From Marinomonas lutimaris (GTDB lineage Bacteria > Pseudomonadota > Gammaproteobacteria > Pseudomonadales > Marinomonadaceae): a stretch of 64,000 nt of DNA. Positions 5,661-11,163 of the stretch are shown here, piece by piece. The notes beneath the pieces are model-generated. The model was not told the origin of the DNA. It was given only the letters and a program-made list of their open reading frames with translations, and did not search any database. Numbering within the stretch: the first letter of the stretch is position 1; each line of letters starts with the position of its first letter. Position numbers and translations under genes: made by a program. The DNA lies in contig NZ_JAHLLW010000007.1 in NCBI RefSeq assembly GCF_019426345.1, positions 62,001-126,000 of the forward strand, read 5' to 3'.

Positions 5661-6881
5661 ATGGCCGAAAATGTACTATCAGCCCACTCTAATGTCGCAT
5701 TGGCAAGACAGCCAATAGTAGACAGTCGCCTTGCTGTAATGGGGTATGAACTTCTTTACCGCAAAAATATTTTTGCGGCGCAGGCTGATGTCATTGATGA
5801 GGTTGGCGCAACGGCTCAGGTTATTGCTGCTAGTCTTTTTGAGCTTGGTATGGAAAACCTTGTGGGGACAAGTAAGGCGTTTATTAATTTTCCTCGGGCT
5901 TATCTGTTAAGCCACAGTGGTATGCCTATCAATAAAGAAAATATCGTGGTTGAAGTGTTGGAAGGTTCGGGCTTTGATGCCATTTTATTGTCGTCTTTAC
6001 GTCGCTGGGTAAAAGATGGTTGCTCCATCGCATTAGACGATTTTGTGTTTGATAGTAAGTTAACACCTTTTATTGAACTAGCGGACTACATTAAATTAGA
6101 TGTTCAGGCTTTAGGTCGAGATAATTTCCATCAGCAAGTTGAGGCGCTAAGGGGCTTTAGTATTAAAATTATTGCTGAGAAAGTTGAGACGTGGGAAGAC
6201 TATCAATTTTGCCGTTTGCTAGGCGTTGAATATTTTCAGGGCTACTTTTTTGAAAAGCCTGAGCTGGTATCTAGCAAAGCGTCTAAAGTGAACAGCATGA
6301 CACTATTGCGCTTGATGTCATCGCTTTTAAATACTTCTACTTTAAGTGTCGACGATCTAGAGCGAATCGTTAGTCAAGATGCGGGGCTGGTTCATAAGTT
6401 ACTGCGTTATTTGAATTCTCCAGTGACAGGGCTTGTTGCTTCTGTTGATTCTGTGCGTTTGGCTATTATGCTGATCGGTGTGGAGAAACTAAAATCGCTA
6501 ACAAATTTGCTATTAATGTCTGAGATGGTAGGTGATAGACATGTTTTGCTCGAGCAAATCATGGTGCGTGCAAAACATGCTGAGTTGTTTGCCCAAAGCC
6601 GAGGTTATAACAATCAGGATAAATATTTCTTAGCGGGAATGTTATCGATGATTGATGTTTGCACAGGTATGCAATTAGACGAAGTACTTGGTGAGCTGCC
6701 TTTGCCTAGCGAGTTTATCAACGCCATTGTGCACCGATCTGGAAGAGTGGGTAATGCGCTTGATCTGGTTGAGCACTATGGTAACGGTCATACCATCAAG
6801 AATCCTCAAGACTTAGAAGATTTGAAACAGACCTATTTAGACGCGATCAAGTGGACTGACGAGTTTCTTGTTGCTATATGA
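5661..6881 (+). CDS. EAL-HDOD signalling protein (YuxH type)
   Basis: A 406-residue protein of the EAL plus HDOD (YuxH) family. Residues about 12-205 are a divergent EAL fold: ARQPIVD, GYELLYR in place of the EALLR motif, LDDFV, YIKLD and YFQGYFFEKP. Because the first motif is ELLYR and metal-binding positions are altered, cyclic-di-GMP hydrolysis is doubtful. Residues about 210-400 are the HDOD domain (LSVDDLERIVSQDAGLVHKLLRYLNS, SVRLAIMLIGVEKL), a catalytically dead HD fold used in signal output. The start has a GGAAACG site. Directly downstream lies a Csr-type small RNA, but no shared regulation is shown. Confidence 0.9.
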   Translation: MAENVLSAHSNVALARQPIVDSRLAVMGYELLYRKNIFAAQADVIDEVGATAQVIAASLFELGMENLVGTSKAFINFPRAYLLSHSGMPINKENIVVEVLEGSGFDAILLSSLRRWVKDGCSIALDDFVFDSKLTPFIELADYIKLDVQALGRDNFHQQVEALRGFSIKIIAEKVETWEDYQFCRLLGVEYFQGYFFEKPELVSSKASKVNSMTLLRLMSSLLNTSTLSVDDLERIVSQDAGLVHKLLRYLNSPVTGLVASVDSVRLAIMLIGVEKLKSLTNLLLMSEMVGDRHVLLEQIMVRAKHAELFAQSRGYNNQDKYFLAGMLSMIDVCTGMQLDEVLGELPLPSEFINAIVHRSGRVGNALDLVEHYGNGHTIKNPQDLEDLKQTYLDAIKWTDEFLVAI

Positions 6882-6911
6882 CTCTGTATGGTTGAATGAA
6901 TAATCAAGGTT

Positions 6912-6929
6912 TGTAGTCCTTTTCTTACA
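6912..6929 (+). promoter_or_regulatory. GacA-type upstream activating sequence
   Basis: TGTAGTCCTTTTCTTACA matches the GacA box (TGTAAG, six bases, CTTACA): the right half is perfect and the left half has four of six bases. It lies about 150-170 bases upstream of the predicted start of the GGA-rich small RNA, similar to its placement before rsmY/rsmZ in pseudomonads. No response regulator gene is in this window. Confidence 0.65.
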
Positions 6930-7043
6930 TGCCTGTAGGCGTTTCCCGTTTGTTACGTGGCTAAATGTCATATCTCTCTGTAATTTTTGTTTATCTTGTT
7001 GATTTTTAAGTAAATATTTCTGTTTTATCGTTTTTTTGAAAAG

Positions 7044-7071
7044 TTGATATATTTTTTCAAGCTGGTAAATT
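7044..7071 (+). promoter_or_regulatory. Candidate sigma-70 promoter of the small RNA
   Basis: TTGATA at 7044-7049 and TAAATT at 7066-7071 are separated by 16 bases, placing a start near 7078. The surrounding DNA is AT-rich. The exact start is not certain. Confidence 0.4.
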
Positions 7072-7077
7072 GAGTCT

Positions 7078-7334
7078 TATCCAAACGGAATTCATGGATG
7101 AAAAGCGCATGAAGTGCTTATTGATATACCATAGATGGTGTTGAGGATTGAGCTTGGATGTTCAAGAACAATGGATTGTTCAAAGGAATAACGTGGTTTG
7201 ATGGATTGCACCATGCGATAAGGATAGTTTGGATGCTTCATGATGAAGCGAACAGTGATGTTTTAACTCATCGGAAGAGTTGCTTGACAGGATGTTAGCA
7301 AAAAGCAGGGTTGCCAATAGGCGCCCTTTTTTTT
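7078..7334 (+). ncRNA. CsrB/RsmZ-type CsrA(RsmA)-sequestering small RNA
   Basis: About 255 bases without a credible ORF carry 11 GGA triplets between 7087 and 7292. Several sit in hairpin loops, the layout used by CsrB, RsmY and RsmZ to titrate the translational regulator CsrA/RsmA. TCATGGATGA at 7092-7101 matches the high-affinity RsmA/RsmE consensus. GAACAATGGATTGTTC at 7166-7181 is a 6-bp stem with a TGGA loop. GCTTCATGATGAAGC at 7235-7249 is another hairpin. An intrinsic terminator closes the RNA and a GacA-type box lies upstream. Size is closer to CsrC than to RsmZ. The 5' end is estimated; I saw no other reading that explains the GGA density. Confidence 0.85.
7307..7334 (+). terminator. 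Intrinsic terminator of the small RNA
   Basis: AGGGTTGCC pairs with GGCGCCCT around an AATA loop (7307-7327, one bulge and one G-T pair), followed by eight T residues. Confidence 0.85.
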
Positions 7335-7383
7335 GTCTAAAATTTATCATACGTCGATTTTCATCGGTATGAAAGTTAAGCAT

Positions 7384-7413
7384 AAAAAAAGCGACTCAAG
7401 AGTCGCTTTTTTA
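7384..7413 (-). terminator. Terminator for fdxA (bidirectional)
   Basis: GCGACT (7391-7396), CAAG loop, AGTCGC (7401-7406), preceded by an A-run and followed by a T-run. It lies 35 bases beyond the fdxA stop and backs up the small RNA terminator in the other direction. Confidence 0.85.
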
Positions 7414-7447
7414 CATTCTTGGCTTTGAAATTTGCTACACAGTTAAA

Positions 7448-7771
7448 TTAGCGCTCTAAATGCTCTAATTTATCTTCAACACCATCCCACTGAGCGGCAT
7501 CAGGGAGTGCGTCTTTTTTCTCTGCAATGTTTGGCCAGATCAAAGATAAGTCTCTGTTCAATTCTACGAACACTTCTTGGTCTTCAGGCAATTCATCTTC
7601 AGAAAAGATGGCATTGGCTGGACATTCAGGTTCACACAATGCGCAGTCGATACACTCGTCAGGATTGATGGCTAAAAAGTTAGGGCCTTCGTAGAAGCAG
7701 TCCACAGGACAAACTTCAACACAGTCAGTGTATTTGCAGCGAATGCAGTTATCGGTAACGATGAAAGCCAT
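7448..7771 (-). CDS. fdxA: 7Fe ferredoxin FdxA
   Basis: A 107-residue low-potential electron carrier holding one [3Fe-4S] and one [4Fe-4S] cluster. The cysteines fall as in Azotobacter ferredoxin I: Cys9, Cys17 and Cys50 for the 3Fe cluster and Cys21, Cys40, Cys43 and Cys46 for the 4Fe cluster, with non-ligand Cys12 and Cys25. The N terminus [20 protein letters not shown] and the acidic C-terminal half are family typical. fdxA commonly sits beside mutS in gammaproteobacteria, as here (mutS ends the next leftward gene, 161 bases upstream). Confidence 0.96.
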
Positions 7772-7898
7772 TCGACTTCTCCTTACAAGGTATAAAAATG
7801 ATTGCGCACTATTTTAGAGGTATAGGCCATTTGGCGGCAAGCAACAATCGTAAAAAGTCTACATTTATCTGCTATTAGCTTATATCGACAGCAGCTTA

Positions 7899-7927
7899 TA
7901 TCGAGACCTTTTGTAAAGGTCTCGATA
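7899..7927. terminator. 13-bp hairpin after mutS
   Basis: TATCGAGACCTTT (7899-7911) pairs with AAAGGTCTCGATA (7915-7927) around a 3-base loop, 5 bases beyond the mutS stop. There is no T-run, so it may act as an mRNA 3'-end stabiliser or a weak terminator. AGCTTATATCGA occurs twice just beside it (7877 and 7894). Confidence 0.5.
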
Positions 7928-7932
7928 ACGTA

Positions 7933-10584
7933 TTACAGCTGAGATTTTAGTTTGTAAAGGGCGCTAATGGCTTCTAACGGCGTCATATTATCTAAATCTA
8001 GCTCTTCAAGGGCATTTTTCAAGGCATTTTGTTCTGCTTGAGCAAACATATCCACTTGTTGGGGCTGATAGCCATTCTTGCTTTCTTTGATCAAGTGCTG
8101 CTTGGCGTTAACTTTAGTTGAGCTTGAATCTGTCTTGGTTTCTATGGTCTTTGTATCGAGATCAATGCCAGTAACCACTTCTAGCTCTTTAAGCTTTTGC
8201 TTGGCGTGCCCAATAACATCACGAGGAACGCCTGCCAGTTGCGCAACTTGTAAGCCATATGATTGACTTGCTGGGCCTTCATGTACCTTATGTAAGAAGA
8301 CGATTTCATCTTCGTACTCTGTTGCTGTTAAGTGAACGTTGGCCGCGTTTTCTAATTGGTCAGCTAATGTAGTAAGTTCAAAATAATGCGTTGCGAACAA
8401 CACGTAGCATTTTAACTTATTGGCTAAATAGTCGACTGCAGCCCAAGCCAATGATAAACCATCAAATGTACTGGTGCCGCGTCCGACTTCATCCATCAAG
8501 ACCAAGCTGTTTTTGCTGGCGTTATTGAGGATGTTTGCCGTTTCTGTCATTTCCACCATGAAGGTTGAACGACCGCCAGCAAGATCGTCAGATGAGCCCA
8601 TGCGCGTAAAGATTCGATCGACCACTGAAATAGACGCCGATTCAGCTGGCACAAAACAACCTGTATGCGCTAACAATGTGATGAGAGCGATTTGGCGCAT
8701 GTAAGTCGATTTACCACCCATGTTAGGGCCAGTAATCATCAGTAGTGAGCGTTTATCATTCAGATCAAGGTCGTTTGGCACGAAAGGTTCTGAAATAACT
8801 GATTCCACCACAGGATGGCGTCCACCGATGATTTGAATACCACCTCGATTGTGTAATTCAGGGCAGGTAAAGCTAAGCACGTTAGCTCTTTCTGCAAAGT
8901 TGTTTAGTACATCGAGTTGCGCCAAGGCTTGGCTGGTGGTTTGTAGCTCACCTAAAATTTCATTAAGTTGCTCTAGAAGTGCTTCGTAAAGCTCTTTTTC
9001 TCTAGCAAGAGATTTGGATTTAGCACTCAGTGCTTTGTCCTCAAAAGCTTTTAATTCTGGTGTGATAAAACGTTCGGCATTTTTTAGCGTCTGGCGACGA
9101 ATGTATTCCACCGGTGCCTGATCGGAATGCAGACGACTAATTTCGATGTAATAGCCATGAACACGATTAAAACCGACTTTTAATGAGCTGATGCCTGTAC
9201 GGGCCTTTTCGCTGCGCTCCATTTCTGCAAGAAAGTCTGTAGCATTGGTGGATAGCGCTAGAAGCTCATCTAACTCTTCATCGTAGCCTTTGGCAAAAAT
9301 ACCGCCATCACGAACAACCGATGGTGGGTTTTCGACAAGGGCTTTTGCCAACGTATCTGTGACAGTGGGTTGTGCCAGAATGCGCTGATTGAGCTCTTGT
9401 AAGCGTTCAGATGTTGCGTTTGCCAGTAAATTGTTTATTTCTGGTGCAGCTTCAAGGGCAAATCGCAGACGCAATAAATCTCTCGGACGGGCAGAGCGTA
9501 AGGCGACTCGTGACAATATGCGTTCTAAATCGCCGACTTTTTTAAGCGGCGCTTCAAAAACATCATAGGTTTGGTTTTGTTGTAACTCCGCGACGACTTG
9601 TTGGCGAGCCTGAATTTCGTTCAAATCACGAATTGGCGTGTGTAACCAGCGTTTTAACAAGCGGCTGCCCATTGGTGTAGAGCATTTATCGAGAACTTCT
9701 ACGACTGTATTGCTGGTACCGCCAGTAAGGTTGATATCGATTTCTAAGTTGCGTCTAGTCGCTCCATCAATCAGAACCGAATCGTCTTTATGCTCTACCA
9801 TGATGGATTGAATGTGCGGTAAAGCAGAGCGTTGAGTATCTTTAGCGTATTGAAGTAAAGCACCTGCAGACGCAATAGCGGCTGTCATGGCCTCACAACC
9901 AAAACCAGACAAATCTTTGGTGTTGAATTGCTGAATCAATTGGCGGTAACTGGATTCATAATCGAAGTGCCAAGGGCCAAGTTCAGAGATGCCTTTTTCC
10001 AGCTTCAGTGTCTTTCGTGCAGGGAAATCTTCAGAGATCAAAATTTCTCTCGGTGACAAACGCTGTAATTCACTAGAAAGCGCTTCGTGACCATCTACTT
10101 CAAATAAGCAAAAACGGCCACTGGCCATATCTAAATAAGAGAAACCAAAAATATCGAGCCCTTTGCGGGATTGATGAGCAAGTGAAAGCAGAAGGTTTTC
10201 GCGTTTCTCTTCCAGGAATGCTTCATCACTAATGGTACCTGGCGTTACGATGCGAGCGATTTGGCGTTCAACTGGACCTTTGCTGGTGGCTGGATCGCCC
10301 GTCTGCTCAGCCACAACAACGGACTCGCCCATACGAACTAAGCGCGCAATGTAGTTTTCCGCAGCGTGATAGGGAATACCAGCCATAGGAATCGGCATGC
10401 CACCAGAATGACCGCGAGCCGTGAGTGTAATATCAAGCAACTGGGAAGCGCGTTTGGCGTCATCGTAGAAAAGCTCGTAAAAATCTCCCATGCGATAAAA
10501 TAGCAGTTGGTTTGGGTGCTGAGACTTAAGGCCGAAGTATTGGCGCATCATCGGTGTATGATTATCTGCTGGTGTTTTGCTCAT
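7933..10584 (-). CDS. mutS: DNA mismatch repair protein MutS
   Basis: An 883-residue mismatch-recognition ATPase, close to the usual 850-880. [15 protein letters not shown] near the N terminus carries the mismatch-stacking Phe and the Glu of the Phe-X-Glu motif. The C-terminal ATPase has [13 protein letters not shown] (Walker A), [16 protein letters not shown] (Walker B) and FATHYFELT. The open frame begins 39 codons earlier, but the family start is [17 protein letters not shown] at ATG 10582-10584; no clear ribosome site precedes it. It is divergent from pncC with 78 bases between. Confidence 0.97.
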
Positions 10585-10662
10585 TCGGGAAGCTCGATTG
10601 TGATCCAAAAAATAGACGGGTATTCTACGGGATATTTTCCTAGGATTTAAGGGATAATGATA

Positions 10663-11163
10663 ATGAATCAAATGCAAAAAATGACACAAGCTGCGCAACA
10701 AGCCAGCGAACTCTTACAAGCAAGAGGGTTTTTACTCGTCACGGCGGAGTCTTGCTCTGGTGGGTTGATTGGTGCGGTATGCACGGAAATAGCTGGCAGC
10801 TCGTCGTGGTTTTTTGGTGGTGTGATCAGCTATGCCAATGAAGCTAAGATACGCGGTTTGTCGGTAAAAGAAGAAACCCTGTCATCTTTTGGCGCCGTGT
10901 CTGAGCAAACAGTGAAAGAGATGTGTGCTGGCGCCTTACAATTAGGCGGTGACATTTCTGTTGCTGTTAGTGGTGTGGCAGGTCCTGGGGGCGGCTCGCT
11001 AGAAAAGCCTGTAGGCTGTGTTTATATTGGCTGGCAATTACGCGGACAAGAAGCCAAAGTTGAGCGTTTTCAGTTTTCTGGGGATCGTCAAGCGGTAAGA
11101 GAAGCGACTGTTTTAGCTGCTCTTCATGGTGTGGAAGAGATGCTTGAAAGCGGTGAAAAATAA
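10663..11163 (+). CDS. pncC: Nicotinamide-nucleotide amidase (CinA C-terminal domain)
   Basis: A 166-residue single-domain CinA-C protein that converts nicotinamide mononucleotide to nicotinic acid mononucleotide in NAD salvage. [10 protein letters not shown], the [11 protein letters not shown] stretch and [14 protein letters not shown] are the family core. Two in-frame ATGs lie at 10657 and 10663; AAGGGA at 10649-10654 is only 2 bases from the first and 8 from the second, so 10663 is chosen. The cinA/pncC-recA order is classical in proteobacteria, and the LexA box of recA begins one base after this stop codon. Confidence 0.92.

Follow-up and report, generated by a model that had tools for sequence, protein, structure and literature searches.

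The question raised by this locus is what occupies the 566-base intergenic gap (6882-7447) between a plus-strand gene for an EAL-HDOD protein (5661-6881; Pfam EAL and HDOD) and fdxA (7448-7771, minus strand; NCBIfam NF045490, 172.5 bits, cut-off 135) in the window, by which we mean the whole 64-kb stretch of DNA analyzed here. A first-pass annotation, made from the letters, had placed an unannotated small RNA of the CsrB/RsmZ type in this gap, which it correctly located after the EAL-HDOD gene and measured at 565 bases. On the basis of the analyses below, the plus-strand segment 7079-7334 is a small RNA of approximately 256 nt that would sequester CsrA, a reading to which we give a probability of about 0.93. 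Its 5′ end is predicted from the -10 element and a conserved ATCCAAAC start, approximately 200 bases past the EAL-HDOD stop codon, and its own terminator closes 113 bases short of the fdxA stop codon. The convergent fdxA gene is a position marker shared with Pseudomonas rsmZ, and mutS (7933-10701, minus strand; TIGR01070, 1163.5 bits) is the next marker of the rsmZ neighbourhood. A second, bidirectional terminator hairpin, evident from the sequence (7385-7412), serves fdxA and possibly backs up the terminator of the RNA.

Eleven GGA triplets lie within 206 bases (7087-7292), at positions 7087, 7096, 7145, 7156, 7173, 7185, 7203, 7222, 7231, 7273, and 7290. When all 205-base segments of the 64 kb are compared, the RNA locus is the density peak on either strand: the plus strand has a mean of 2.0 GGA per segment (sd 1.5) and reaches its maximum of 10 at this locus alone, and the maximum on the minus strand is 9. 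Of 2000 dinucleotide shuffles of the transcript, 9 had at least 11 GGA and 3 had at least eight AGGA, ATGGA, or ACGGA motifs. The RsmE-type consensus [AU]CANGGANG[AU], which we take to be the RsmA/RsmE-type recognition pattern, is found exactly at 7092-7101, with three further occurrences on the plus strand and two on the minus strand of the window. It falls within a TTCA-TGGA-TGAA hairpin (7091-7102, plus strand) in which 86% of cells are paired in alignment A1 (described below) and one pair shows a two-sided change; this hairpin is absent from both the RNAalifold consensus and the single-sequence minimum-energy fold. The hairpin GAACAA-TGGA-TTGTTC (7166-7181, plus strand) has compensatory change in four of its six pairs and 83% of cells paired, with one inner pair broken in 11 of 20 sequences. 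In another, GCTTGAC-AGGA-TGTTAGC (7282-7299, plus strand), one pair changes from C-G to A-U in 7 of 20 sequences. The RNA ends in an intrinsic terminator at 7308-7334 of the plus strand, GGGTTGCC-AATA-GGCGCCC followed by eight T, which is visible in the sequence and in the fold and whose helix (helix 12) is paired in 97% of cells; a simple consensus terminator scan found nothing at this position, probably due to a bulged T. The GGA cluster of 11 triplets in about 205 bases, the exact consensus, the 6-bp stem with its TGGA loop, and the terminator had all been read correctly in the first-pass annotation, though the consensus has its five other occurrences in the window. Folding, which that annotation had proposed as a check, yields local hairpins and the terminator, and the predicted transcript (7079-7336) folds better than 200 of 200 shuffles (z -3.2). 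In the single-sequence ensemble, four of the 11 GGA are wholly unpaired (P > 0.9 for all three bases; 7087, 7173, 7203, 7290), four are mostly paired (7096, 7222, 7231, 7273), and three are mixed.

Conservation was analyzed in 56 genomes, 35 of which are Marinomonas, including that of the window; all 35 contain fdxA. The RNA was extracted from 34 of the 35 genus loci, with four 5′ ends set by hand; the locus dropped (L022) is on a contig that ends 192 bases from fdxA. One locus with an over-long end (L031, 384 nt) was excluded from the shuffle counts. Each RNA in the 33 counted loci contains 8-17 GGA on the sense strand and no more than two TCC, and in most of these loci the GGA count is above nearly all of 300 shuffles. 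The excess is modest in L019 and L029, where the count is reached by 47 and 30 of 300 shuffles, and counts in L009 and L010 are not above shuffles (reached or passed by 131 and 64 of 300). The RsmE-type consensus is present in 24 of the 34 RNAs and lies within the first 40 nt in 20.

Alignment A1 comprises 20 of the 34 transcripts, the more similar ones, with 14 left out, and it contains invariant GGA columns. RNAalifold predicts 55 pairs from this alignment, 20 of them with compensatory change. In a 65-pair structure, 22 pairs show two-sided compensatory change compared to 7.1 +- 1.8 in shuffles (none of 500 as high), a control that leaves relatedness in place. The same structure has 92.9% of cells paired versus 41-45% in slid controls, a figure that is flattered because the structure was drawn from the same sequences; the two-sided changes are better evidence. 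In this fold, local hairpins follow one another along the RNA, and six of the 12 helices have GGA in their loops; one long-range helix (CCAAAC/GTTTGG, 98% of cells paired) encloses approximately the 5′ three fifths of the molecule. The first-pass annotation had set in advance that loss of the GGA loops in other Marinomonas would count against it; with the invariant columns and compensatory changes, this comparison gave no refutation. In L021, L024, L025, and L029 (genomes G013, G004, G032, and G009), GGA motifs run past the first T-run to the terminator shared with fdxA, which suggests a longer RNA in this group.

Upstream of the transcript, a promoter was recognized by scan and genus comparison at 7044-7071 of the plus strand (TTGATA, 16 nt, TAAATT, with an extended -10 TG). 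The promoter scan by itself is at chance level (two found versus 1.8 expected), and a TTG element with an extended -10 is usual across the 34 genus loci. Further upstream is a GacA/UvrY-box-like upstream activating sequence, TGTAGT-N6-CTTACA (6912-6929, plus strand), whose sequence TGTAGTCCTTTTCTTACA has two mismatches to TGTAAGN6CTTACA. Sites with at most two mismatches number 134 in the whole genome versus 147 for the reversed control. As a result of this lack of enrichment, the box is not evidence by itself, and it is its conservation that counts. The best upstream site in all 34 genus loci has one to four mismatches, a count made without a shuffle control. Measured from the conserved ATCC, the start of the box falls between -164 and -168 in 32 loci and at -176 and -177 in the other two. 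The near match to the GacA box reported in the first-pass annotation therefore gains from its fixed geometry, but is not significant alone.

A second TGTAGG half-site, identified by alignment, follows on the plus strand at 6934-6939 and precedes a conserved YTTTGTT-TGT stretch. In 33 of 34 loci a similar half-site begins 22 or 23 bp after the first box does, as judged from a search with a loose pattern over the 18-24 bp range only, without a shuffle control. The linker contains an IHF-like site on the minus strand (6992-7004) with eight of the nine specified bases of WATCAANNNNTTR, the IHF consensus that we assumed for scoring. Sites with at least eight of nine bases are conserved in 26 of 34 genus linkers, compared to 10.0 expected from shuffles, with 21 of these 26 placed between -86 and -88. 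The csrC gene of M. mediterranea MMB-1 (see below) has its box at -167, the same position as in the genus fdxA loci, and the box starts at -179 to -191 in four Pseudomonas rsmZ loci. For rsmZ of P. aeruginosa a box at -196 has been reported (PMC4950607), and the same source refers to work in P. protegens in which IHF binds the A+T-rich promoter of rsmZ.

A narrower form of the box, TGTARKN6CYTACA, was picked after the box of the window was known. It occurs at three places in the genome (one forward and one reverse in the control), namely the box at 6912-6929, a site upstream of csrA, and C9:65669. The last was considered as a csrC locus and rejected, given that its surroundings are not GGA-rich. 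This palindromic box, TGTAGGCATATTCCTACA (L138 1501-1518; G000 C9:65669-65686), has no GGA-rich RNA alongside. It is intergenic, flanked by a chemoreceptor-like gene and a LysR-type gene, both named by eye, and is a possible direct target of the regulator.

To extend the comparison, a covariance model (R1) was built from 20 of the 34 extracted Marinomonas transcripts. It matches all 35 Marinomonas genomes, including each of the 15 without a sequence in the model (best E of each <=9.6e-10). The match is at the fdxA locus in 33 of the 35; of the exceptions, G021 has a copy there that was seen only in a separate scan (32.8 bits), and the fdxA contig of G019 does not extend far enough for a verdict. 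The genome search was run under strict filters that scored 36 of 852 first-look candidates, such that a diverged second copy could escape; two copies found by the separate scan did escape it, that of G021 at the fdxA locus and the nearer of the two in G029. Under these filters R1 gives one match and no second copy in the genome of the window. Likewise, BLAST of MMB-1 csrC against this genome returns the window's locus alone at a significant E (2.4e-4).

Copy number varies elsewhere in the genus. At least five of the 35 genomes (G003, G005, G014, G016, G029) have two copies in tandem beside fdxA, at L035 (1092-1342 and 1580-1828), L030, L031, L033, and L034. In four of these genomes a separate box, at -165 or -166, precedes the upstream copy; none was found for G005. 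There are also R1 matches off the fdxA contig, at C18:99249-99493 in G012, C5:59213-59467 in G019, and C3:8099-8353 in G021. These are dispersed second copies, like MMB-1 csrC, with the exception of G019, in which the fdxA contig is cut too short.

Two RNAs of this class have been described in the genus. In M. mediterranea MMB-1, csrB and csrC are expressed at high levels that drop strongly when ppoS or ppoR is mutated; PpoS/PpoR is a BarA/UvrY-like two-component system that controls CRISPR-Cas expression and phage resistance (PMC8523701). The published intervals (csrB, 755,847-756,302; csrC, 3,922,203-3,922,857) are read-counting intervals rather than mapped ends (PMC8523701). We identified genome G010 as MMB-1 because fdxA matches its minus strand from 756305, which puts the end of the published csrB interval at the fdxA stop codon; because the published csrA1 box has one exact copy in it; and because an R1 match falls inside the csrC interval. 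With neither sequence in the model, R1 recovers both published RNAs, csrC at 3922437-3922689 (100 bits) and csrB at 756049-756279 (30.5 bits). An orthologue of the window RNA is therefore already in print as M. mediterranea csrB, and the novelty implied by the first-pass annotation is correspondingly lower. In our literature search, PMC8523701 was the only paper with both Marinomonas and CsrB, and its main text gives no hint of the locus shared with Pseudomonas rsmZ, the words "ferredoxin" and "fdxA" having no occurrences in it.

The window RNA shares with MMB-1 csrB the genus, the fdxA-adjacent locus, GGA motifs, a GacA-like box, and a terminator. However, MMB-1 csrB is much diverged by its R1 score and ends in the terminator shared with fdxA. 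MMB-1 csrC is nearer to the window's group by model score, but is located away from fdxA. While MMB-1 has both RNAs, one copy was found in the window's genome. RNA copies may have replaced one another, with the window RNA at the csrB locus yet csrC-like. MMB-1 csrC has a peculiarity of its own (L153 604-1096, minus strand): the hairpin that closes its first unit lacks a T-run, and a further GGA-rich stretch (RF00166, E 0.049) comes before a proper terminator, so that csrC has the look of two units fused into one.

Rfam, the check recommended first in the initial annotation, gives no match at gathering score in the whole window, and RsmZ (RF00166, gathering 44 bits) does not match the window. 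CsrB (RF00018, gathering 71 bits) has no match at E<=10 in the window's whole genome; the E. coli CsrB/CsrC model of this family is longer, at 356 positions, and the likeness of the window RNA to E. coli CsrB/CsrC would lie in a common mechanism. In a permissive scan of 6000-8500, the best member of the CsrB/Rsm clan is RsmY (E 0.079). AgrB, STnc50, BTnc231, Phe leader, and other families that scored above RsmY were set aside, being mostly centred on the terminator hairpin at 7382-7412; the bidirectional hairpin (7385-7412) accounts for the weak AgrB and STnc50 matches. Relatives score better. In permissive scans of 16 relatives' loci, nine have a clan match at E<=2; the unrelated families BTnc231, RefA1, PhrS, and MicX score in a like range in these 16 loci, so that only the best clan matches were used. 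RF00166 matches several of these relatives, all below gathering (best 35.1 bits, L020, E 1.5e-4), and one Marinomonas locus (L028) matches RF00018 end to end (E 2.4e-6, 35.8 bits, gathering 71). The Rfam check thus returned no family at gathering score, but did return sub-threshold clan matches in relatives. We class the RNA with CsrB/RsmZ and regard it as orthologous by position to csrB of M. mediterranea and to rsmZ of Pseudomonas. It is not placed in RF00166 or RF00018, since it falls below the threshold of each. R1 recovers relatives missed by Rfam and is usable for annotation.

The link to rsmZ is one of genomic position and architecture. We take rpoS to be the upstream neighbour of Pseudomonas rsmZ, and a figure legend names it in the rsmZ region of Pseudomonas. 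In its place the window RNA has the EAL-HDOD gene. In 31 of 35 genus loci this gene lies no more than 1400 bases upstream of the RNA (two of the four misses have flanks of just 192 and 766 bases), and it was found there in none of 19 same-order loci. On the other side, rsmZ adjoins fdxA in Pseudomonas (PMC4353343, PMC9788540). In our set, Rfam found RsmZ in four of 20 fdxA loci, approximately 60-90 bases beyond the fdxA match and on the opposite strand. Applied to 96 non-Marinomonas fdxA loci, R1 gave 30 matches at E<=1, and 25 of these fall on the expected strand and no further than 500 nt from the 3′ end of fdxA, in a zone that makes up approximately 6% of bases. One of the 25 (L040) is just a terminator palindrome, and the 96 loci are not all distinct: L044 and L074 are probably one genome, and neither matched. 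R1 overlaps RsmZ in three of the four loci confirmed by Rfam and has no match in L079, where Rfam finds RsmZ. The R1 alignments to Pseudomonas include large deletions, and the orthology consequently rests on position and architecture, not on residue-level similarity. Like the window RNA, RsmZ/PrrB (RF00166) is convergent with fdxA-mutS, has a distal GacA box, and is GGA-rich; its matches in the four loci span 119-134 nt, compared to approximately 256 nt for the window RNA.

A related arrangement is reported for Alcanivorax dieselolei, in which a CsrA-related RNA, CsrR2, lies beside a ferredoxin gene; the authors note the fdxA-rsmZ parallel and report six unpaired GGA (PMC9788540). We liken CsrR2 to the window RNA by the ferredoxin-gene position and that description only. 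Five Halomonadaceae-type fdxA loci (L122, L131, L103, L068, L115) also carry stretches rich in GGA, 8-14 per 220 bases, on the same strand. A box accompanies three of them (L122, L131, L103), and R1 matches none of the five.

The genome also encodes protein partners for such an RNA. It contains three CsrA genes that score over cut-off, the best of which is preceded by a GacA-box-like palindrome (C64:199287), as is csrA1 of MMB-1 (PMC8523701). A UvrY/GacA-like regulator gene adjoins uvrC (258.5 bits, below the cut-off of 280), and a BarA-like hybrid kinase scores 678.7 bits, below the cut-off of 890, with the next best at 433.7. Despite these sub-cut-off scores, both are clearly the best matches in the genome. 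The mechanism that we infer for this species, including CsrA binding, titration, IHF action, and signals, would begin with a BarA-like kinase of the PpoS type that activates a UvrY/GacA-like regulator of the PpoR type. The regulator would bind the 6912-6929 box and perhaps also the second half-site, IHF would bend the A+T-rich linker, and sigma-70 RNA polymerase would start at approximately 7079 from the extended -10. The transcript is predicted to fold into successive short hairpins that carry GGA in their loops and at the junctions between them, up to the intrinsic terminator. It would hold several CsrA dimers, in turn freeing CsrA-repressed mRNAs.

Sequence-level features of the class are found here: multiple GGA in loops or single strands, a box upstream, and genes for CsrA, UvrY-like, and BarA-like proteins. 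On sequence grounds, an extended -10, fixed geometry, and a terminator also argue for an independent transcript. The CsrB/RsmZ-type assignment, as proposed in the first-pass annotation, is supported and by far the best reading because of the compensatory hairpins, the recovery of csrB and csrC by R1, the fdxA synteny, the promoter geometry, and the UvrY-like, BarA-like, and CsrA genes.

Other explanations fit this evidence less well. As the RNA converges with fdxA, it could act mainly by base pairing, for example on fdxA mRNA, with its GGA incidental; read-through past 7334 could overlap the fdxA 3′ end, and antisense pairing is discussed for the fdxA-adjacent RNA of Alcanivorax (PMC9788540). 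Yet the RNA stops at a terminator of its own, 113 bases short of the end of fdxA, the conserved parts are GGA motifs and self-complementary hairpins, and MMB-1 csrC belongs to the same family and lies away from fdxA, all of which make this account improbable. It seems rather more improbable still that the segment belongs to a neighbouring protein gene, as its 3′ UTR or leader, and is no independent RNA. Such a UTR would suit a segment downstream of the EAL-HDOD gene in the same direction, but not one that starts approximately 200 bases from the stop codon with its own conserved promoter geometry and with similar units that have their own box in tandem and at another locus; nor would it suit a leader of the next gene, fdxA, which is on the other strand. 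The weakest proposal is that of a chance GGA cluster or coding remnant on either strand, to which we give almost no credence. A 67-codon antisense frame does exist at 7180-7383 and 9 of 2000 shuffles contain 11 GGA, but compensatory changes preserve RNA pairs and the unit is present in 35 of 35 genomes. That frame was rejected as coding, being interrupted by stops or frameshifts in nine of nine relatives examined (33 other genus loci carry the RNA), and the proposal as a whole is already refuted by conservation.

As a CsrB/RsmZ-type RNA, the window RNA is well supported; it belongs to a known class in which it is nothing out of the ordinary, and its mechanism is textbook. With this analysis the BarA/UvrY-Csr circuit of this genome gains its missing RNA, and the unit is found in all 35 Marinomonas genomes examined, mostly at the locus common to Pseudomonas rsmZ. 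In the literature searched we found no earlier report of the fdxA/rsmZ synteny of Marinomonas csrB, of the rigid -167/-87 promoter geometry with its second half-site, or of changes in RNA copy number within Marinomonas. The RNA is also a handle on defence regulation in marine bacteria, because the same two-component system, PpoS/PpoR, controls CRISPR-Cas in M. mediterranea (PMC8523701).

A more speculative scenario, which we consider unlikely as a whole, is that the Marinomonas RNA and rsmZ descend from a common fdxA-linked CsrA sponge, to which Marinomonas added a two-site activator (TGTAGG-type sites 22 bp apart, IHF, and an extended -10) and an EAL-HDOD neighbour that might affect RNA turnover. 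This neighbour (5661-6881) has ELLYR in place of the EAL signature, which we take as the norm in EAL enzymes. In E. coli, the EAL protein CsrD acts on CsrB turnover; a CsrD-like part for the EAL-HDOD protein in RNA turnover would be a mere idea by analogy.
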